From NCBI RefSeq assembly GCF_000026105.1, contig NC_008027.1, forward strand, positions 3,610,501 to 3,674,500: a stretch of 64,000 nucleotides of DNA, read 5' to 3'. Positions within the stretch are counted from its first letter, which is position 1. Every line of letters begins with the position of its first letter. Source of the stretch: Pseudomonas entomophila L48 (GTDB lineage: Bacteria > Pseudomonadota > Gammaproteobacteria > Pseudomonadales > Pseudomonadaceae). Positions 128 to 8,950 of the stretch are shown piece by piece. The translations under genes were made by a program, and so were the position numbers. The notes beneath the pieces are model-generated. The model worked only from the letters and a program-made list of their open reading frames with translations. It made no database searches and was not told where the DNA came from.

Positions 128-1084
128 ATGACCCACCTGCCCGCCCCGCTACAACGCGCCCTCGCCAACGGCAGCCTCTATGCCGTGCTCGCGGCACTGG
201 GTTTCAGCTTCAAGGCCATCTTCGTCAAGCTCGCCTATGCCGCAGGTTCGGTGGATGCCATCAGCCTGCTGGCCTTGCGCATGGCCCTGTCGTTGCCGCT
301 GTTCGACTGGCTGGTGTGGTCCAGTCGTCGCCAGGGCGGCGCGCCGCTGACGTTGAGCGACGGGCTGCGCGTGGCCCTGCTCGGGCTGTTCGGTTACTAC
401 CTGGCGAGCCTTTTCGACTTCTATGGGTTGCAGTACATCAGCGCCGGGCTGGAGCGGCTGATCCTGTTCACCTACCCGACCCTGGTGCTGCTGATCCAGG
501 CCGTCGCCCAGCGCGAGCGCCCCACCCTGCGCACGCTGGCGGCCATGGGCCTGTGCTACCTGGGGCTGGGTATTGCCTTCGTCCATGACATCGCCAGCTC
601 GGGTGTCGGCAGCCAGGTGATCCTCGGTTCGCTGTGGGTGTTCGCCAGCGCGGTGACCTACGCGCTGTACTACTCGGGCACCGGGGCGATGCTCAAACGC
701 ATGGGTTCGATGCGCCTGGCCGGGTTATGCGGCACGGCGTCGTCGTTGATGGTGCTGGGCCATTACCTGTTGGTGGCGGACGTTGCACCCCTGCTGCAAC
801 TGCCGAGTGCGGTATGGATGTACGCAGCGTTGATGGCGCTGTTTTCCACGGTGCTGCCGATCTACTGGGTGGCCCTGGCGATCCAGCGCCTGGGGCCGAC
901 CCACACGGCGGCGGTGGGCAACCTGGGGCCAGTGCTGACGGTGCTGGCGTCGTGGGCGATCCTCAACGAGGAGATCTCGCTGTACCAGGTGGCCGGGTTG
1001 GCGCTGGTACTGTTCGGGGTTTCGCGGTTGAAGCCGGCGAAGAAGGAAGCCCCTTCCTCCTCGGCCGAAGAAGCGGCGGCGTAG
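128..1084 (+). CDS. EamA/DMT-superfamily transporter
   Basis: This 318-aa inner-membrane protein has about ten hydrophobic segments arranged as two EamA repeats, the size and layout of drug/metabolite transporters of the RhaT/YdcZ type. The N-terminal repeat begins near residue 15 (YAVLAALGFSFKAIFVKLAY). The second repeat runs from about 160 to 300 and ends with the typical 'LNEEISLYQVAGLALVLFG' signature. The C-terminus is a short charged Lys/Ala/Ser tail. The family exports or imports small metabolites, and the substrate cannot be read from sequence. It is divergent from a LysR-type regulator, which probably controls it through the 27-127 intergenic region. Confidence 0.85.
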   Translation: MTHLPAPLQRALANGSLYAVLAALGFSFKAIFVKLAYAAGSVDAISLLALRMALSLPLFDWLVWSSRRQGGAPLTLSDGLRVALLGLFGYYLASLFDFYGLQYISAGLERLILFTYPTLVLLIQAVAQRERPTLRTLAAMGLCYLGLGIAFVHDIASSGVGSQVILGSLWVFASAVTYALYYSGTGAMLKRMGSMRLAGLCGTASSLMVLGHYLLVADVAPLLQLPSAVWMYAALMALFSTVLPIYWVALAIQRLGPTHTAAVGNLGPVLTVLASWAILNEEISLYQVAGLALVLFGVSRLKPAKKEAPSSSAEEAAA

Positions 1085-1201
1085 TTACCCCCAGGACCGC
1101 GCTGTCGCATAGGGTACAGAGCTGCGAGCCCCCTCAAATCTTGCACGCTCCCACGGGGAATCGCGTAAATCCCGAGCATTGTGCAAGACAGTCGCTCCCA
1201 A

Positions 1202-1921
1202 TTACGCCGTGGGGCCTCGGCGGGTTCCGACGATGATGCTCTGGTCGCGTAGTTGCTCCAGCAGCATCAAGCCCTGGCGCTGCACCTCATCATTACCCAG
1301 TGCCCGCAAGCGCTCACGCCCGCTGCCCGGCAGCCCCATCAACAGTTGCCAGGCCATCGGCGCCACCCGGGCGAATCGCACCTGCAGCCCCGCGTCGCGA
1401 TAGACCAGCAACAAGGTCGGTGCCCCGGGCGGCTCGACTGGCTGGAAATCCTGCCCGATGCGCTCCACCGGCCAGCGATAGGCCAACACCCGCGCCACGC
1501 ACGAAAGCAGCGGCTCGCCGTCGAGCAGGTCCCCCAAGGGGTCATGCGGCGGATCCTCGGCATCGCTCAGGTACAGCTGCGCCTCGATCCATTCGTAATG
1601 CGCCAGCTCCAACTGCCAGGGCGCATCGAGCTCGATCCCTTTCAGGTAGTCGATGAACGCCGTGGCGACTTCGCTGAACAGCGGGGTCTGGCTGCGGTAG
1701 TGCGCGTAGAAATCCTGCACCCGCGCCTGCCAGCGCGCCTCCCCCAAGGTACTGCGCAACACCGGAAAACTGCCGGCCAGCAAGCCTTCGACAGTGCCAA
1801 AGAACAGTTCACGATAGACCGCCAGGCGTCGCGCCTCGATGCCCGGCGGCGGTGGATTGGCAACGGGGTCGCGCAGGTGCCGGGCCAGGGTGAACTGCTG
1901 CTCACGCAGGGAATCAGCCAT
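1202..1921 (-). CDS. HvfC-like DUF2063 partner protein of MNIO enzyme
   Basis: This 239-aa protein begins MADSLREQQ. An open frame continues upstream, but the ATG at 1921 overlaps the stop of the DUF692 gene, so it is the likely start. The N-terminal half carries the DUF2063 pattern: [24 protein letters not shown] around residues 30-53, followed by [16 protein letters not shown]. In characterised MNIO systems this partner supplies precursor-peptide recognition and works with the oxidase on Cys-containing repeats. It is the last gene of the three-gene operon hvfA-hvfB-hvfC, and the overlap implies coupled translation. Family assignment is strong; biochemical role is by homology. Confidence 0.85.
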
Positions 1922-2747
1922 GGCGCGGCCCTCCATGGCGCTGTTGCAGGTCACGAATACGGGCCGTTTCGGCCAGCAGCTCGGCCAGCGGCGGGTAGTT
2001 GAAGTCACGTTCGAGCACGGTCGGCTGCGCGCCAAACCGTTCACAAGCCCGGGCGAACAAGGCCCAGACATCCTCCTTGACCGGCGCGCCGTGGGTGTCG
2101 ACCTTGAGGTCGGGCGCTTCGTCGTAGTGGCCGGCCACATGCATGCCCACCACTCGCTCGCGTGGGATGCCCGCAAGGAAGGCATGTGCCTCGTAGCGAT
2201 GGTTGCAGGCATTGACGAAGACATTGTTGACGTCCAGCAGCAAGTCGCAATCGGCTTCATCGAGTACCGCGCGAATGAAGTCCAGTTCGCTCATGGCCTG
2301 GTACGGCGCGGCGTAGTAGCTGATGTTCTCTACCGCAATGCGCCGCCCCAGCAGATCCTGGGCCTGGCGGATGCGTGCCGACACATGGTGGACAGCCTCT
2401 TCGGTGAACGGGATCGGCAGCAGGTCGTAGAGGTGACCATCGTCACTGCAATAGCTCAGGTGCTCGCTGTACAGGTTCACCTGATGGCGGTCGAGGAAGC
2501 GCCGGGTGAGCCCAAGGAACGCCTCGTCCAGCGGCGCGGTGCCGCCCAGCGACAAGGACAGGCCATGACAGGCGATGGGAAAGCGCTCGGCCAGGCATTC
2601 AAGTTTCTGGCCAAAGGCACCGCCAACGCCAATCCAGTTTTCCGGGGCGCACTCCAGGAAGTCCACCTCGCCCGCTTGCATCTCCAGCAGTTCGGGCAGC
2701 AGGCCTCGGCGCAAGCCGAGCCCGGTATGCAACGGGGTGTCGATCAT
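1914..2747 (-). CDS. HvfB-like DUF692 multinuclear iron oxidase (MNIO)
   Basis: This 277-aa TIM-barrel enzyme belongs to the DUF692/MbnB/HvfB family, which oxidises Cys residues in ribosomal peptides at a di/tri-iron centre. Family metal-ligand motifs are visible: [10 protein letters not shown] (His61), [30 protein letters not shown] and DTHGAPV. I chose the ATG at 2747 ([15 protein letters not shown]) because homologues begin there and a GGAG lies about 10 nt upstream; the frame stays open for 18 more codons. It lies 67 nt downstream of the EGKCG-repeat precursor gene and overlaps the DUF2063 gene. The likely reaction is conversion of precursor cysteines into oxazolone/thioamide-type groups, as reported for Haemophilus HvfABC. 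Confidence 0.9.
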
Positions 2748-2775
2748 GATGGGAAGGCTCCAGCTAGGCGACGGG

Positions 2776-2807
2776 CCGACCGTGGCGCATATCGGCGCCA
2801 CGGTCGG
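2776..2807 (-). promoter_or_regulatory. Intercistronic hairpin between precursor and MNIO gene
   Basis: A perfect 13-bp inverted repeat (2776-2788 with 2795-2807) encloses a 6-nt loop. It begins 7 nt past the stop of the precursor gene on the minus strand. There is no T-tract after it, so it is not a classical terminator. It could act as a partial attenuator or an mRNA 3'-end stabiliser, making precursor transcript more abundant than enzyme transcript. Confidence 0.6.
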
Positions 2808-2814
2808 GTGCAGG

Positions 2815-3309
2815 TCAGGAATTGCCGGTCAGATGGCTGAACAGCCCGTCGGGCATCGCCTTGCCGTTGGCCTTGTAGATCGCCGCCAGGTGGTCGGCGG
2901 CTTCCTGTTCGGAGATCAAGCCATCGTGGTTGCTGTCGATCTTGTCGAAGTCAGCGGCGCGGTCCTTGGCCACCACGAGGAACTCCTCGCGCGAGACCTT
3001 GCCGTCGTGATTGCTGTCGGTGCGCGCGAACGAGGCGTCGCCGCACTTGCCTTCACCGCATTTGCCCTCGGTGCCGGCCTTGGCGCTGGCACCACACTTG
3101 CCCTCGCCACACTTGCCCTCGGCGCCGGCCTTGGCACTGGCGCCGCATTTGCCCTCACCGCACTTGCCCTCGCCAGGTGTCTTGGCCGAAGCCAGTTGGT
3201 AACCCTGGCTCAGGGGTTCCACGGCGAAGGCGGAATTACCCAGGACCATGCCGCCGAGCAGGGTGGCGCCGAGCAGGCCGAGCGTATTACGGGTGGTTTT
3301 GGTTTTCAT
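2815..3309 (-). CDS. HvfA-like EGKCG-repeat RiPP precursor fused to EF-hand pair
   Basis: This 164-aa secreted protein has three parts. Residues 1-29 form a signal peptide ending SAFA. Residues 47-90 carry six EGKCG units in three pairs (Cys50/55, 67/72, 84/89) separated by ASAKAG(A/T) linkers. Residues 98-109 and 125-136 are two canonical EF-hand loops ([12 protein letters not shown] and [12 protein letters not shown]). EGKCG repeats are the hallmark of the HvfA/bufferin family, whose cysteines are modified by MNIO enzymes and which bind copper. The start ATG at 3309 follows GGAG at 7 nt. The EF-hand fusion suggests a calcium-dependent or larger structural form of the peptide; that part is inference. 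Confidence 0.85.
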
Positions 3310-3314
3310 GGTGT

Positions 3315-3343
3315 AGCTCCACGGGTGGTTGAAAAGTGGAGCC
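3315..3343 (-). promoter_or_regulatory. 5'-UTR hairpin covering the precursor gene's Shine-Dalgarno
   Basis: On the minus-strand transcript, bases from 3343-3336 (GGCUCCAC) pair with 3322-3315 (GUGGAGCU) across a 13-nt loop, giving seven Watson-Crick pairs plus one G-U. The downstream arm contains the GGAG ribosome-binding site of the EGKCG-repeat gene. The geometry would hide the site when folded, as in translational switches or RNA thermometers. No experimental support. Confidence 0.45.
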
Positions 3344-3447
3344 ATTTGGCCTGGGCGGTGTGTCGCGGGTGTATCGCGCAGCAGCGGGTTTTGTATGAAA
3401 GCAGCACAAGACGAGCGTTGGATACAGTGCGATACAAGGAGTTGAGC

Positions 3448-3540
3448 ATCGTGGCAGCGGGTTTGCCCCGCGATAGCGCAAATAGCTGCGCACAATCTGC
3501 CTGGTGGGCAGCCATCGCGGGGCAAGCCCGCTTCCACGAT
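3448..3540. repeat. REP pair, GCGGGCTTGCCCCGC class
   Basis: Two inverted copies of a Pseudomonas REP (a GCGGG-TTGCCCCGCGAT core at 3457-3474 and its complement near 3514-3532) face each other. The outer arms read ATCGTGG and CCACGAT. The pair occupies the gap between the RiPP precursor promoter region and the end of the DUF4174 gene. Confidence 0.85.
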
Positions 3541-3560
3541 GGCCTCAGTCGCCTGCGTGA

Positions 3561-4121
3561 TCAGTCGTCGAGCGGTTTGGGTGGCGCCGCGGGCTTGGCC
3601 GGCTTGGCCGATTTACCGGGCTTGCTCTCCTTGGGCGCGGGCTCCGGGACACTGGCCACCGGCTCCGGCGCCGTGACCGCTTTCTCGCTGGCGGGCAGTT
3701 CATCGACCGCCTTGAAGATCACCTGCGGGTCGATCTTCTCGCCGCTGTCATCGTCCTTGAGAATGTGCCGCTCGCCATCCTTGCCCACCAGGATCACCTT
3801 GGTGCCCTTGCTGGCACCCAGCTTGAGCTCGCGGATCAGGGCCATGGTGGCCTGCTGCTCGAGGTTCTTGTCCTCGCGCTTGCCCATCATGTTGGCAACG
3901 CTGTACAGCACCAGGTTGCGCTCGGTGAAGCCCGCCCGGGTGGCCGGGTCCTCCAACGCCTGGTTCAGGCCACGCAGGGTCGGATCGGCCGTGCTTGGGG
4001 CAATGATGACCAGCGGCCTGGCCTTGCCCAGCTCCTTGGCCAGCGGTGCGTCACTGTCTGCGGCCAGCAGCGGCCCGGCGATGGCGATCAGGGTGGCAAA
4101 GGTCAATGACCGAACGAGCAT
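3561..4121 (-). CDS. Secreted DUF4174-family protein
   Basis: This 186-aa protein has a signal peptide (MLVRSLTFATLIAIAGPLLA). A DUF4174-type thioredoxin-like core covers residues 30-135: PLVIIAPSTADPTL, then RNLVLYSVAN, KVILVGKDGE, and 'DPQVIFKAVDELP'. A low-complexity Pro/Lys/Ala/Glu tail follows from about 140. DUF4174 proteins sit in the periplasm and have no settled function; there is no CxxC, so it is not a thiol oxidoreductase. The ATG at 4121 is preceded by AAGGAG. It is upstream of the RiPP operon on the same strand but separated by about 250 bp and a REP pair, so co-transcription is uncertain. Confidence 0.75.
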   Translation of the reverse strand: MLVRSLTFATLIAIAGPLLAADSDAPLAKELGKARPLVIIAPSTADPTLRGLNQALEDPATRAGFTERNLVLYSVANMMGKREDKNLEQQATMALIRELKLGASKGTKVILVGKDGERHILKDDDSGEKIDPQVIFKAVDELPASEKAVTAPEPVASVPEPAPKESKPGKSAKPAKPAAPPKPLDD

Positions 4122-4193
4122 GCGTATCTCCTTGTTCTCTCGATAACACCAAAGACTGCGGATCAGGGAGAAAGATCCGACGCGGGAGCCTAA

Positions 4194-4215
4194 ACCACCT
4201 GATCAAACAGGTGGT
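4194..4215 (-). terminator. Possible terminator after the NEL ligase gene
   Basis: An 8-bp inverted repeat (ACCACCTG/CAGGTGGT, 6-nt loop) lies about 110 bp past the minus-strand stop at 4329 and is followed by a short TT run. The T-tract is poor, so termination strength is doubtful. Confidence 0.35.
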
Positions 4216-4328
4216 CAGGCGAAAGGTAACTGGCCATTACCGGATCGCCCCTGACCCGCCGCGGCCTCCCCGCGAAACCGCCCACGGCTGACCTGAGCAT
4301 AGTCCAACGCCACTGCCCGCGAGGCGCT

Positions 4329-7300
4329 TCAGTGCAGGGCGACCTGCCAGGTACGCGCGCTCCGGGTCAAGGCTTCGCGGGTCAGTGCCAGCAAGGTGTC
4401 GTGCTCGCGCTGGCGGATCCGCGCCTGCAGCCGTTCGATGGCGGAGTCCGGCGCGTTCAGGGCGAGCAGGTCGTCGAGCTCGTCGTGGTAAGCCTGGGGC
4501 ACGCGCAGCCGTTCGGCGAAGGCGCCTTCGAGGTACTGCCGCCAGAACCCCAGCCCGACCATCCATTCGGTGATCGCGTTCTCGGTCTGGGCCGCGACGA
4601 TACGGTTGCGTGCCCAGGCGATGTCGGCGGGCGTGAGGTTGGCCACCCCACGGTAGAGCATGCCCTCGAGGGCCAGCGGCAGGTCCAGCTCGTCTCGCAG
4701 GTCAAGGCGATAGGCCAGCGCCACTTCGAGCGACTCCACGCCGGCGGTCGGCATGGCCTCGGCATGGGCCCAGGCCAGTTCGTCGAGCTTCTGCAAGCGC
4801 CACAACTGGCCACCGAGATGCACAAGCGCCTGCTCGCGATTGCCCGCCAACTGGCCGTGCTCGGCCCGCCAGACCTTCAGGCGCACTTCCAGGTCGCTGA
4901 AGCGGAAGGTGGCGCTGTCTTCGCAACGGGTCACCACCGCGTTGTCGAACAGCGTTTGCCGCAACTCGACGTGTTTCTGCATACCCAGCATCATTCGGCG
5001 CACCCGATCGGCCAGATAGCGGGCACTGAAATCGCCCTGGAAATCGGCCGACCCCGTCAACTCAGCCAATAGATGAAAAAAGGCGCGGGAGTCTTCCAGG
5101 CCTTCAAGATCGCTCCAGACGGCCGCCATCTCATCGCGTACCTCAGGCTCCACCAGGTCGAGCCAGCGTAGTTGAATGGGTACCTGACTGCCCGTGACGG
5201 CATGCCACGCTGACACGGCCTGGTCGTTCGCCGCCAGCAGGTTGCCGAACATCAGCACCCGGCCCCGGCGCCACAGACGTGATTGATGCAGGCCCTCCGG
5301 CAGCGTAGCGATGCCGTTGTCGCTCAAGTCCAGCGTATGCAGCCTGGGCAACTGCAGAACTCCGAAGGGCATGTCGTCGATCTGCGTCTGGGCCAGCAGC
5401 AGTGCGTTGAGCTTGGGCATGCCAAGCACCGAGAACGACCTGCGCAATGGGTTGTGCGACAAGTTGAGGTAGACCAACGACCTGCAGCCCATCAGGGTCA
5501 GGGTCTGCCCGGCATCCAGGGTAATTCGGTTACTGGACAGGTCCAGCACTTGCAGGTGCTCGTTCAGCGCCAGCGACAACGGCAGCTGTTGCAACTTGCA
5601 GCCGGTGATCTCCAGCGTGCGCAAGTTAGGGAACGCACGCAGGAAGTCGTCCGGGATCAGGCGCAACCGCATCGCGCGTAGGGCCAGGCTCGACACATGA
5701 GGAAAGCTGACCTGAGGGGGAATGCTCGGTAGCTGCTGCAGGCGACTGGCGGTCTGGGTCAGCAGGTACCCGCCCTCAACGGTCTCGCCACTGGCAAGCT
5801 CCGGGATCAGGAAGCGCCAGCAGTCCATAAGCCCCTGTCCCAGTTCGCGCCGGGCGTCCCACTCCGTGGTGGCGAAGGCCTTGCGCTGCCAGGTCTTCAG
5901 GGTCTTGGCCAGGAGGGCGTGCTGTTGCTCCAGCACGCCCAGTTCGGCATCGGCGTAGCGCCCCGCCTGCTGTACCTGTTCGAACCAGCCCTGCATCTGT
6001 GCATCGCTGAAGGCCGGGTACAAATCGCGCAACCTGGCCGACAGGGCCCTGGGCCTGTTGTTGGAGCGGCCGAGCCAGCGGCGCCAGCCGCTGAGCGGAT
6101 AACCGATGCGGCCATCATCGAGCCGTTGCGGCGCCAGGAACGAGGTAGCTGGACGCTCAAGGCCAAGTGCCTCGGCAACGGCCTGGCGTTGCTCCGGTGT
6201 CTGGCGTGCCAGCTCTGTGCGCAAGCCCGCGGCGAACGGCTCGTCGATAGCCATCGCGGCACGCTGCTCGACGGAATAGCCCTGGGCCAGTGTTTCGAAC
6301 AGTTCCCCCGGTGTGCCCAGCACATTCCCGTTCCTCTCCCTGAGCACGAACTCGCCGCCGCGATGGACCAAGTGCAGTTCGCGTCCTGTACCGTCGGTGC
6401 TCAGCAGCGGCTCGCTGGCCTCGCCATCGAACAGCTGCCAGCGCACCGCCGTGGTGGAGGCCGGTTTTTTCCCGAGCAGGGTCAGCACCACGCGCGCCAA
6501 GTCGAGGTTCTGCGGGGTATCGAAGGCCAGTGCCTCCAGCACCCTGGCCATGCGTATGCGCCTGACTCGGGTAGCGGCTGCCTGGGCCATCGCCAGGGGA
6601 ACCTGGTCATGCTCGACCAAGGCTTGCCGATCACTGTCGCGGGCTGCACGGAGCAACGCCTGGGCAGCGGCACGATGCAGACTGGCAAAGTCGCGCTGCA
6701 GCACCCGAGTCGCATCGGTGGGTGGGTATTGCTCGTCGTACAGGCGTTGCAGCAGGTTGCGCCGTCGGGCCCAGAGGTGCTCCCCCAGCGCTTGGTCATC
6801 CATCCGTGCGGCACCCGGCAACGCCCTGGCCTCGGCCAGCATTGACAGGTCGGTGATATCAGCTCCCGAACGCAATTGGCCAGCCAGGCCCTGGATGCGC
6901 TCAGCCAGCGCCATGCGGTTCACCGTGTCGAGCAGTTCGGCATGCGCAGGCCTGCCAAGCACATGCAGGCCCCGCAAATGACTGGCATCCAGGCCATGGA
7001 TGAACAGGGCCTGGTCGATCCGCGCATCGTCCAGCGTGGCGAACTCGCCACCGAGGCGACGGAACATCCTGTGGCGGTCCTCCCACTCCAGTGGCGACTC
7101 GTCCCATACTCGCCAGGCTCCCGCCGTGTTGTGCCGCAGCAGCGGCCCATGCCCCTGGCGTGGACGCAATTGCCATTGCTCATCCGAAACGCGTTGAATC
7201 ACGGGATAATGGTGCCCCTCCATGTTGATCCAGTGGCGGTCGCCCTGGCGCAAGATACCCTGCTCGTCCATCACCGCATCGGCAGGCGGTGCCTCGCTGC

Positions 7301-8804
7301 GAAAGGGCACCAGGTCGCCATTCCACAGCTTTTCACTGCCATCCTCGAGACGCGCCGCCACCAGTTCGTCCACCGGGTGCCAGGCCCGGCGAACCGCCGC
7401 CACCCCCGCCACGGTACCCCCCACCACGGCCACGGTCCTGCCAACCGCCAGGGCATGGTCGAGCGCCGCCTTGGTATCGCCGTCCTGCCAGTCCTCGACC
7501 GCCTGGAACGTTTCCTTCAACAGGTCCCAGGCCATCACCGCCAGCAACGCGGCGCCGATCTGCGGCACGAACAACCCAGCCAGGCCCAGTAAGGTCCAGC
7601 CTTCGGCAACCAGCTGCTTGTCATGGGCAACCTGTACCGCACGATCGAGCTGCGCCACCGGTGGCGCGATCACTGCGGCGTCATCCTTGATCTGTGCGAT
7701 GCAGGCGCTGGCCAGGTGCTCGAACAACGCAGCGGGGTAGGCTTGCATGTGTTCATCCAGGTCGCGGGTGGCCCAGTTGGTCACGTCACCCAAACGCTCA
7801 TCAACCTTGGCGAAAAAGCGCTGGCTGTCGCGACGCTTCACGAAACGTCGGAAGAAGCGCTGGTACTCGGCCTTGCGCAAACGCATGCCCAGCACCCGTC
7901 GGGCAAACGCCTCCAGGTCATCACAGGCACTCCAGGGCCCCTGCGGGTCACCCGGGATGTACACCAGCACACGCTTGCTGGTATCGCGCAACCAACCCTT
8001 GTCGATCACATCCAGCACGACGATCTGCTGCAGGTCGCAACCGAAGGCCCGCAATTGCTTGGCGATGACTGGCGCCCCCGCCAGCGACCCCGGCTTGCCA
8101 TCGTGATACAGGCCGGTCACCAGCGCCAGTTCGGCCTCGCTCAGCACGCCATCGACCTTTGCCTTGCAGGCATCGACCAACAGGTTGGCCCGCTGCAGTT
8201 GGGTGAGCAACGACTTGACGCCCTGCCCGTTGATCTCGGCGTCCAGTACACCGGCCAGGTGCTCCTGGTAACGCTTGCCCAGGTCCAGCTCACGGCACAG
8301 CGCGGCAAACCCCAGCGCACCGGGACGCGCCAGTCCCTTGCCTGCCGCATCGACCACGGCATTGCGGCGCGGCTGGCCACCGACGCCGGTTTCCTGCACG
8401 GTGAAGTTGCACAACGCCGCCTCGAGCAGCGGTATCTCGTAGTCGTCGGTGCCCTGCAAGGGATAGCGCCCCGCGACCAGGCCACCTTCGTTCGCCAGGT
8501 GGAAGTACTGCCGTCGCAGGTACAGCATGTCAACTGCGTGATCGACCTGGTAACGCTCGGCCAACGCCTGCTGCAGCAGAGGCCGGGTGAACGCGTCGAT
8601 CCCCTGCAGGCGTGCGAACACCTTGCCCAGCGCCTGCCGGCAGGCCAGGCTGGTCTTCAGCGCCTCGCTCAACACGCTGAACTGCGCCGGGGTCAGCCCA
8701 CTCATCCACGACGGCAGGCGCCGGGCGATCAGCCGGTCCTGATACGCCTGTTCGATGGCCAGCGTGTCGACGCTCGTTGCCGGTTGCTTGGCAGTAGTGC
8801 CCAT
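4329..8804 (-). CDS. NEL-type E3 ubiquitin-ligase-like effector with leucine-rich repeats
   Basis: This 1491-aa protein starts at ATG 8804, which has GGAGGTAC upstream; an in-frame ATG six codons earlier lacks a good site. The first ~900 residues resemble the dermonecrotic-toxin/DUF6543 region of large Pseudomonas effectors, with hydrophobic segments around 400-480. About five to six leucine-rich repeats lie at roughly 1030-1175 (for example LQVLDLSSNRITL, LHTLDLSDNGIATLP). The C-terminal ~300 residues match the Novel E3 Ligase domain of IpaH/SspH, with its catalytic CxD motif as CED (Cys1294). NEL ligases ubiquitinate eukaryotic host proteins. No signal peptide or secretion genes are visible here, so the delivery route is unknown. 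Confidence 0.85.
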   Translation of the reverse strand: MGTTAKQPATSVDTLAIEQAYQDRLIARRLPSWMSGLTPAQFSVLSEALKTSLACRQALGKVFARLQGIDAFTRPLLQQALAERYQVDHAVDMLYLRRQYFHLANEGGLVAGRYPLQGTDDYEIPLLEAALCNFTVQETGVGGQPRRNAVVDAAGKGLARPGALGFAALCRELDLGKRYQEHLAGVLDAEINGQGVKSLLTQLQRANLLVDACKAKVDGVLSEAELALVTGLYHDGKPGSLAGAPVIAKQLRAFGCDLQQIVVLDVIDKGWLRDTSKRVLVYIPGDPQGPWSACDDLEAFARRVLGMRLRKAEYQRFFRRFVKRRDSQRFFAKVDERLGDVTNWATRDLDEHMQAYPAALFEHLASACIAQIKDDAAVIAPPVAQLDRAVQVAHDKQLVAEGWTLLGLAGLFVPQIGAALLAVMAWDLLKETFQAVEDWQDGDTKAALDHALAVGRTVAVVGGTVAGVAAVRRAWHPVDELVAARLEDGSEKLWNGDLVPFRSEAPPADAVMDEQGILRQGDRHWINMEGHHYPVIQRVSDEQWQLRPRQGHGPLLRHNTAGAWRVWDESPLEWEDRHRMFRRLGGEFATLDDARIDQALFIHGLDASHLRGLHVLGRPAHAELLDTVNRMALAERIQGLAGQLRSGADITDLSMLAEARALPGAARMDDQALGEHLWARRRNLLQRLYDEQYPPTDATRVLQRDFASLHRAAAQALLRAARDSDRQALVEHDQVPLAMAQAAATRVRRIRMARVLEALAFDTPQNLDLARVVLTLLGKKPASTTAVRWQLFDGEASEPLLSTDGTGRELHLVHRGGEFVLRERNGNVLGTPGELFETLAQGYSVEQRAAMAIDEPFAAGLRTELARQTPEQRQAVAEALGLERPATSFLAPQRLDDGRIGYPLSGWRRWLGRSNNRPRALSARLRDLYPAFSDAQMQGWFEQVQQAGRYADAELGVLEQQHALLAKTLKTWQRKAFATTEWDARRELGQGLMDCWRFLIPELASGETVEGGYLLTQTASRLQQLPSIPPQVSFPHVSSLALRAMRLRLIPDDFLRAFPNLRTLEITGCKLQQLPLSLALNEHLQVLDLSSNRITLDAGQTLTLMGCRSLVYLNLSHNPLRRSFSVLGMPKLNALLLAQTQIDDMPFGVLQLPRLHTLDLSDNGIATLPEGLHQSRLWRRGRVLMFGNLLAANDQAVSAWHAVTGSQVPIQLRWLDLVEPEVRDEMAAVWSDLEGLEDSRAFFHLLAELTGSADFQGDFSARYLADRVRRMMLGMQKHVELRQTLFDNAVVTRCEDSATFRFSDLEVRLKVWRAEHGQLAGNREQALVHLGGQLWRLQKLDELAWAHAEAMPTAGVESLEVALAYRLDLRDELDLPLALEGMLYRGVANLTPADIAWARNRIVAAQTENAITEWMVGLGFWRQYLEGAFAERLRVPQAYHDELDDLLALNAPDSAIERLQARIRQREHDTLLALTREALTRSARTWQVALH

Positions 8805-8950
8805 GTCGTACCTCCAGGTCAAAGTGGCGTACGAGGCTATCCACTGCCTTGGTGCAACATCGGCTAGTTAATTACCACCCACCTTGCAGGCCGCCCCCCC
8901 GAACACGCCGCGTTGGTACCTACGCGGCCAAGTGTTGAGTGACAGCTTGA

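Follow-up and report, generated by a model that had tools for sequence, protein, structure and literature searches.

An EfhP-type precursor of Pseudomonas entomophila with an EGKCG array and two EF-hands: a probable copper-binding modified protein under putative BfmR control

We analysed a stretch of 64,000 nucleotides from the genome of Pseudomonas entomophila L48 (NC_008027.1, positions 3,610,501 to 3,674,500; hereafter the window, whose own coordinates are used below). It contains a three-gene operon on the minus strand (1202-3309) that encodes, in this order, a precursor protein, a multinuclear non-haem iron-dependent oxidative enzyme (MNIO) and a DUF2063/HvfC partner protein. Our best explanation, which we consider probable, is that the precursor is a periplasmic ribosomally synthesized and post-translationally modified peptide (RiPP) of the EfhP-type HvfA/oxazolin (Buf_EGKCG) kind, controlled by the response regulator BfmR, whose cysteines would be modified to thiooxazoles for Cu(I) and whose EF-hand pair would fold with Ca2+ into a sensing or docking domain. 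A preliminary description of this DNA had reported a 164-residue gene product with a signal peptide, six EGKCG motifs and two intact EF-hand loops, followed by DUF692 and DUF2063 genes; this layout was confirmed, and the span of 1202-3309 given for it was right. Its interpretation, an MNIO RiPP operon of the HvfABC type whose precursor also carries a calcium-binding module, was likewise borne out by Pfam and NCBIfam matches. That account does not cover the DUF4174 gene upstream, the sites in the promoter or the family known from the literature, all described below.

The precursor gene (2815..3309, minus strand; EfhP/HvfA family) runs from an ATG at 3309 to a TGA stop at 2815-2817 and encodes 164 residues. 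Residues 1-29 (3223..3309, minus strand; ...NSAFA, followed by VEP) were read by eye as a signal peptide: the N terminus is basic and then hydrophobic and, with its A-F-A/V site, appears in our reading as expected for a Sec signal peptide. L33, Q35, G36 and Y37, which come after it, are invariant or nearly so in two homologue alignments (A1 and A2); the first motif tried for this stretch (107/232 EF-hand proteins, 8/12 others) was too strict, and its counts were not used. Six EGKCG motifs, the predicted MNIO targets, occupy residues 47-90 (3040..3171, minus strand) as three units; the motif pairs begin at residues 47, 64 and 81 and so repeat with a period of exactly 17 residues, and the third pair directly abuts the EF-hand domain. 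An origin of the array as a raw DNA-repeat artefact or chance repeat was rejected because the codons of the copies differ, with 44, 36 and 35 of 51 bases identical in pairwise comparisons. The two EF-hand loops, at residues 98-109 (2983..3018, minus strand) and 125-136 (2902..2937, minus strand), are both canonical 12-residue loops with ligands at positions 1, 3, 5 and 12, and match Pfam EF-hand_5 at 3.5e-9. Among structures, general EF-hand proteins were matched at 0.001 or worse, and no solved structure of a close precursor relative was found.

The MNIO gene (1914..2750, minus strand; 278 residues from an ATG at 2750) matches DUF692 (PF05114) at 5.7e-102 and the HvfB model NF003818 with 418.9 bits (cut-off 360). 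The partner gene (1202..1924, minus strand; 240 residues) overlaps the end of the MNIO gene by 11 bases, and its product scores 250 bits with HvfC NF050145 (cut-off 142). For the precursor, NCBIfam NF050137 (KCGExKCG_twice) gives 64 bits (cut-off 19.5), whereas the strict HvfA equivalog NF050188 gives 47.2 bits, below its cut-off of 95. The window precursor thus belongs to the broadly defined HvfA family (NF050137, together with HvfB and HvfC) but not to the strict HvfA oxazolins, and NCBI names many of its homologues HvfA family RiPP metallophores. With EGKCG motifs N-terminal to two EF-hands and an MNIO of the EF-associated clade, it also falls into the Buf_EGKCG/EF-hand chimaera (EfhP) family. 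HvfB and HvfC families are shared with HvfA/oxazolin and fontiphorin/gonophorin (captophorins), and HvfA/oxazolin of Haemophilus influenzae, with three EGKCG-type motifs and six modified cysteines, compares with six cysteine motifs in the window. In contrast to HvfA and the captophorins, the window precursor has added EF-hands and misses the NF050188 cut-off, and its operon has no adjoining DoxX/HvfX gene, as judged by eye from the open reading frames listed for the window.

The preliminary description did not count a calcium-binding module among the features of small precursors of this type and left open whether such fusions had been described. The EGKCG/EF-hand fusion is of a kind already described in the literature, and we rejected its being undescribed. 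The P. aeruginosa member, EfhP (PA4107), became a subject of research on Ca2+ sensing in 2014, when its operon was reported to include DUF692 and DUF2063 genes and when P. putida and P. entomophila were grouped together, their loci having a DUF4174 gene as in the window (PMC4053335); four EGKCG repeats in EfhP were noted in 2024 (PMC11559002, mBio). EfhP shares with the window the gene order (PA4107-4106-4105, with DUF692 and DUF2063) and two EF-hands, and a 155-residue EfhP-type protein of P. aeruginosa (P0088) aligns with 94% of the window precursor at 66% identity. The window precursor differs from EfhP in having six rather than four cysteine motifs and shorter spacers. Unlike the P. aeruginosa efhP locus, the window genome has its BfmR and DoxX orthologues elsewhere, with a DUF4174 gene upstream instead. 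Published Buf_EGKCG/EF-hand chimaeras (for example, WP_187711723.1) resemble the window precursor in having a signal or transmembrane helix, EGKCG motifs, two C-terminal EF-hands and associated MNIOs. However, the EF-hand type has been described as devoid of 17-residue repeats (PMC12452194), whereas the window precursor carries EGKCG pairs at exactly this period and joins the published first type (17-residue repeats) and second type (EF-hands) on one chain. The printed division into proteins with 17-residue repeats and no EF-hands, or with EF-hands and no repeats, therefore fails at this precursor; in our reading, the period exposes a limitation of the published description and does not exclude the precursor from the family.

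For comparison we assembled 244 distinct precursors, comprising the best 120 of 4594 homologues, the query and the precursors in fetched loci. Ten of the 244 have no EF-hand loop, a share that is not a population estimate, as a set gathered by similarity to an EF-bearing query favours EF retention. Both loops are canonical in 232 of the 234 EF-bearing proteins, one loop being lost or altered in the other two (P0051 and P0070); degenerate EF-hands, which the preliminary description had named beforehand as the finding that would count against it, were accordingly rejected. In these 232 proteins the number of KCG motifs spans 1-8, and a 17-residue period occurs at least once in 30 and two or more times in three. 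The EF domain appears to be under purifying selection, with a median ratio of nonsynonymous to synonymous substitutions (dN/dS) of 0.106 over the 45 pairs of ten close homologues (the window and L073-L081). A database search for EGKCG motifs and EF-hands beside DUF692 genes had been proposed; among the best 80 of 377 relatives, the fusion is present in named Pseudomonas, Stenotrophomonas, Lysobacter, Rheinheimera and Steroidobacter genomes and in a Paucimonas metagenome-assembled genome. In two loci (L051, 2578-2985; L052, 2445-2837), related precursors have KCG motifs flanking the EF pair on both sides, an arrangement of which no description was found in the accessible text of the literature on the family.

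The precursor is closely associated with the MNIO, also when the two genes lie apart. Among 198 Pseudomonadaceae genomes, 44 encode an EF-hand precursor with KCG motifs and 43 a close MNIO (at least 390 bits to the window MNIO; next best, 351.5), and all 43 are among the 44, although such counts are not independent, given shared descent, for which reason the Fisher p-value obtained was not taken as evidence. The exception (G127) has two fragments only of the close MNIO gene and a precursor with fewer motifs than those of its relatives. At this locus (L043), the fragments lie beside the EF precursor, which reads EGKRG where its relatives read EGKCG and has a shorter array. A fragmented MNIO gene also stands beside an EF precursor at L045 in G136, a genome that has another, intact copy (L046). 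Precursor and MNIO genes are unlinked in many Pseudomonas; for 26 named loci in which no MNIO gene immediately follows the precursor, a close MNIO (66-87% identical) was found in 26/26 genomes, and in three of these it is within the same fetched locus.

This association bears on the possibility that the precursor is mainly a Ca2+ (perhaps iron) sensor, in which the EF-hands would signal and the EGKCG motifs, as free thiols, would bind or sense iron, with the MNIO acting on another substrate or playing a minor role. Deletion of efhP alters Ca2+ regulation of iron uptake, its authors propose dual Ca2+ and iron sensing with the four EGKCG repeats as the iron-sensing part (PMC11559002), and the EF loop ligands barely vary across homologues. 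However, a close MNIO is encoded in the same genome in 43/44 cases, unlinked precursor and MNIO loci mostly have a common promoter half-site (see below), and the same EGKCG motif becomes thiooxazole in HvfA and fontiphorin (PMC13097082, PMC13419390). We consider such a sensor unlikely.

To place the EF module in the history of the maturase, we examined a quick tree of MNIOs, built from 121 of the 125 collected after removal of four distant sequences, with support values from the Shimodaira-Hasegawa-like approximate likelihood ratio test (SH-aLRT) and no bootstrap. All EF-associated MNIOs, including that of the window, lie in one clade of 110 rows (SH-aLRT 99), of which 79 have a linked EF precursor, 28 have no directly upstream precursor and three have an EF-less precursor; nine EF-less rows and two outgroup rows lie outside. 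The MNIOs of the three EF-less rows (L048, L153 and L154) are 82-87% identical to that of the window, the DUF4174 neighbour is kept, and the precursors have 6, 5 and 8 KCG motifs, respectively. Because these rows are nested within the window's own clade of 14 rows (SH-aLRT 100), the EF module was, by parsimony, probably lost from their operon precursors; no EF pattern was found in any frame of the gaps of 54-110 bases between their precursor and MNIO genes. All three genomes encode an EF-bearing precursor with KCG motifs elsewhere (L049, L120 and L111), as does a fourth genome (L095/L155), whose MNIO gene has no adjacent precursor, and the EF domains of these four copies belong to a 26-row P. 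nitroreducens-type set (support 99; alignment of 76 columns), not with that of the window. Since each genome with an EF-less operon keeps an EF-bearing precursor elsewhere, the module would appear to be dispensable for the operon precursor but not for the genome in this sample, and the cell seems to need it, as at least one EF-bearing copy is present in 43/43 sampled Pseudomonadaceae genomes with this MNIO clade.

These losses affect two further interpretations of the EF-hands. If they served biosynthesis, as a follower domain recognized by the MNIO/HvfC complex, the separate clade formed by EF-linked MNIOs would be explained. However, EF-less precursors directly precede MNIOs of the same clade, which makes it improbable that recognition by the MNIO requires the EF module. 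HvfA likewise lacks EF-hands and is nevertheless modified, its signal sequence favouring the reaction (PMC13419390). With the EF-less orthologues and the gaps devoid of an EF pattern, a role as maturase recognition element is very unlikely. Alternatively, the EF pair could be just a folded tail that protects the array from proteases or retains the protein in the periplasm, with Ca2+ being structural and neither gating nor signalling. There are three orthologous operon precursors without EF-hands and two precursors in which the EF pair lies between KCG motifs, which suggests that the array can work without or around the pair; moreover, at millimolar periplasmic Ca2+ the dissociation constant reported for EfhP (13.7 uM) would leave that protein mostly Ca2+-loaded. 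In contrast, a mere tail should vanish more often, yet the genomes with EF-less operons all retain an EF-bearing copy, and Ca2+, according to the authors of the EfhP study, increases the hydrophobicity of that protein, as happens in sensors (PMC9132961). A simple tail is therefore a possibility that we regard with some doubt; it overlaps our preferred explanation, in which retention and docking are both left open, and the two are not mutually exclusive.

The promoter region suggests how the operon may be controlled. In P. aeruginosa, BfmR binds TACAA-N3-GATACA, with GATACA as the half-site (an earlier motif was GATACAnnGC), and efhP is the gene that it activates most (PMC8025907, PMC4148453). 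A motif search revealed three GATACA sites, a putative BfmR operator, at 3370-3375 (minus strand), 3421-3426 (plus strand) and 3431-3436 (plus strand), the last two forming the direct repeat GATACAGTGCGATACA; the GATACAnnGC form is present at 3421-3430. They lie 66-127 bases before the precursor ATG and make up three of the ten GATACA in the 64 kb. As 8.7 are expected, there is no excess overall, and the clustering is what stands out. GATACA-N4-GATACA occurs a single time in the whole window genome (one contig of 5.89 Mb), at the precursor gene, and its reversed control not at all. The genome encodes a BfmR orthologue (91% identity; next best, 49%), with three GATACA upstream of its own gene.

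Most EF-precursor loci carry the half-site. Within 300 bases upstream of the gene, GATACA was present at 68/81 linked and 33/34 unlinked EF precursors (means of 2.2 and 3.3, compared with 0.07 and 0.12 in shuffles), and the EF-less operons L048, L153 and L154 have 3-4 copies, whereas seven sister-clade operons have none. MNIO genes without a directly upstream precursor carry it upstream in 26/28 cases, the two exceptions having a precursor after the MNIO gene; it was found upstream of 0/6 distant and 0/9 sister-clade MNIO genes. Across 27 genomes, GATACA-N4-5-GATACA occurred at 112 sites and its reversed control at four. Of the 112, 43 are at most 400 bases before an EF precursor, in 25/26 genomes (matched by position without regard to the contig), and 16 are at most 3 kb before an MNIO gene, in 16 genomes (five at most 400 bases; contig taken into account), which leaves 53 sites unassigned. 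Literature joining BfmR with DUF692, MNIO or HvfB was not found among the matches listed. About 10.5 kb before the window, a pair resembling PA4103-PA4104 (a membrane protein and DoxX) is encoded at 3598097-3601567 of the same contig (L197); its DoxX is 74% identical to that adjoining the efhP operon of P. aeruginosa PA7 (L192), and one GATACA precedes the pair.

Given this motif conservation, we propose that BfmR, a two-component response regulator, would switch on the operon through the GATACA direct repeats. The precursor would be made with a Sec signal that doubles as leader, a function for which there is precedent in relatives, in which the signal sequence favours modification by the MNIO (PMC13419390). 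In the cytosol, the HvfB-type MNIO and its HvfC partner would turn the EGKCG cysteines into 5-thiooxazoles, a chemistry in print, together with copper binding, for the EGKCG peptides HvfA and fontiphorin (PMC13097082, PMC13419390), and the modified protein would then be exported and lose its signal by cleavage. Once it is in the periplasm, its rings derived from cysteines would bind Cu(I), while the EF pair would bind Ca2+, as in print for EfhP (dissociation constant as above, for protein without signal peptide produced in E. coli; PMC9132961), and fold into a module that retains the protein or docks it to a partner. A surface-retained protein, as envisaged in the preliminary description, found no support: SignalP 5.0 prediction placed EfhP in the periplasm in 2022 (PMC9132961), and an inner-membrane anchor had been predicted in 2014 (PMC4053335). 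Calcium gating of the modified protein is possible.

A bolder version couples Ca2+ to copper in a two-metal maturation switch. The EF module would be unfolded in the low-Ca2+ cytosol, leaving the precursor open to the MNIO and Sec-competent; periplasmic Ca2+ would then fold the module, which would pull the modified array across and expose a face through which the protein, loaded with Cu(I), docks to a partner in the BfmR stress response. We regard this switch as a long shot. If it were true, the Ca2+ signalling reported for EfhP would be the output of a modified copper protein, and the replacement of a lost EF module by an EF-bearing copy at another locus, with an operator of the same kind, would reflect selection maintaining the switch.

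Several points weigh against a BfmR-controlled copper RiPP, in addition to the bias of the homologue set and the shared descent mentioned above. The full TACAA-N3-GATACA site is absent from the window promoter and is present at just 7/81 linked and 4/34 unlinked EF-precursor loci. Because 13/81 linked loci have no upstream GATACA (Stenotrophomonas-type, most Lysobacter, Steroidobacter, P. carbonaria and the decayed L045), BfmR control would not be universal in the family. No report of modification on any EF-hand member was found in the accessible text of the literature. The Ca2+-binding study used truncated, E. coli-made EfhP, so that binding was not combined with modified cysteines (PMC9132961), and the reported efhP phenotypes affect virulence traits and the regulation of Ca2+ and iron rather than copper (PMC4053335, PMC11559002). 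The copper RiPP explanation would change how EfhP is viewed: it is called a Ca2+ sensor with its mechanism left open, and if the family consists of thiooxazole copper RiPPs, the binding work on the truncated protein saw an unfinished protein. The relatives provide natural controls, namely operons that have or lack the EF module while their MNIOs are closely related, separate loci for precursor and maturase with a common half-site, and a lineage with motifs flanking the EF pair.

Bufferins Buf1 and Buf2 are likewise Sec-exported, MNIO-modified, copper-binding RiPPs in the literature. However, the window precursor has no DUF2282 match in Pfam, the window MNIO scores 271.7, below the BufB cut-off of 310, and identification of the precursor as a Buf1 bufferin was rejected. 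The same genome holds a second, separate MNIO locus (L002, C1:3534545-3538330) with cysteine peptide, DUF2063-like, DoxX-like and sigma-factor-like open reading frames, which we read by eye as a Buf1-like bufferin cluster; its MNIO is only 37-38% identical to that of the window, and no GATACA lies upstream of it.

Within the operon, the gap between the precursor and MNIO genes (2751..2814, minus strand) contains a strong hairpin with a 13-bp perfect stem (z -3.43). Gap hairpins of differing sequence are present in many relatives but are not uniform: a perfect stem of at least 9 was found in 24/88 distinct gaps and a z below -2, against mononucleotide shuffles, in 27/88. Gaps of sister-clade loci had no perfect stem of at least 6 in 7/7 cases, six of these gaps being short (37-49 bases). 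Such a hairpin could possibly tune the level of the enzyme relative to that of the precursor. A sigma-70 promoter scan of 1000-4300 gave no match. The upstream neighbour of the operon (3561..4121, minus strand) encodes a DUF4174 protein, a context reported for group II (PMC4053335); the gene is upstream in 13/14 rows of the window's MNIO clade, EF-less operons included, and none of the tree's remaining rows was found to have it, some other loci extending just about 1.5 kb past the match. Further upstream, 4329-8822 (minus strand) encodes a 1497-residue protein with a ToxA_N domain, leucine-rich repeats and a C-terminal NEL (E3 ligase) domain, which resembles an injected effector or toxin.

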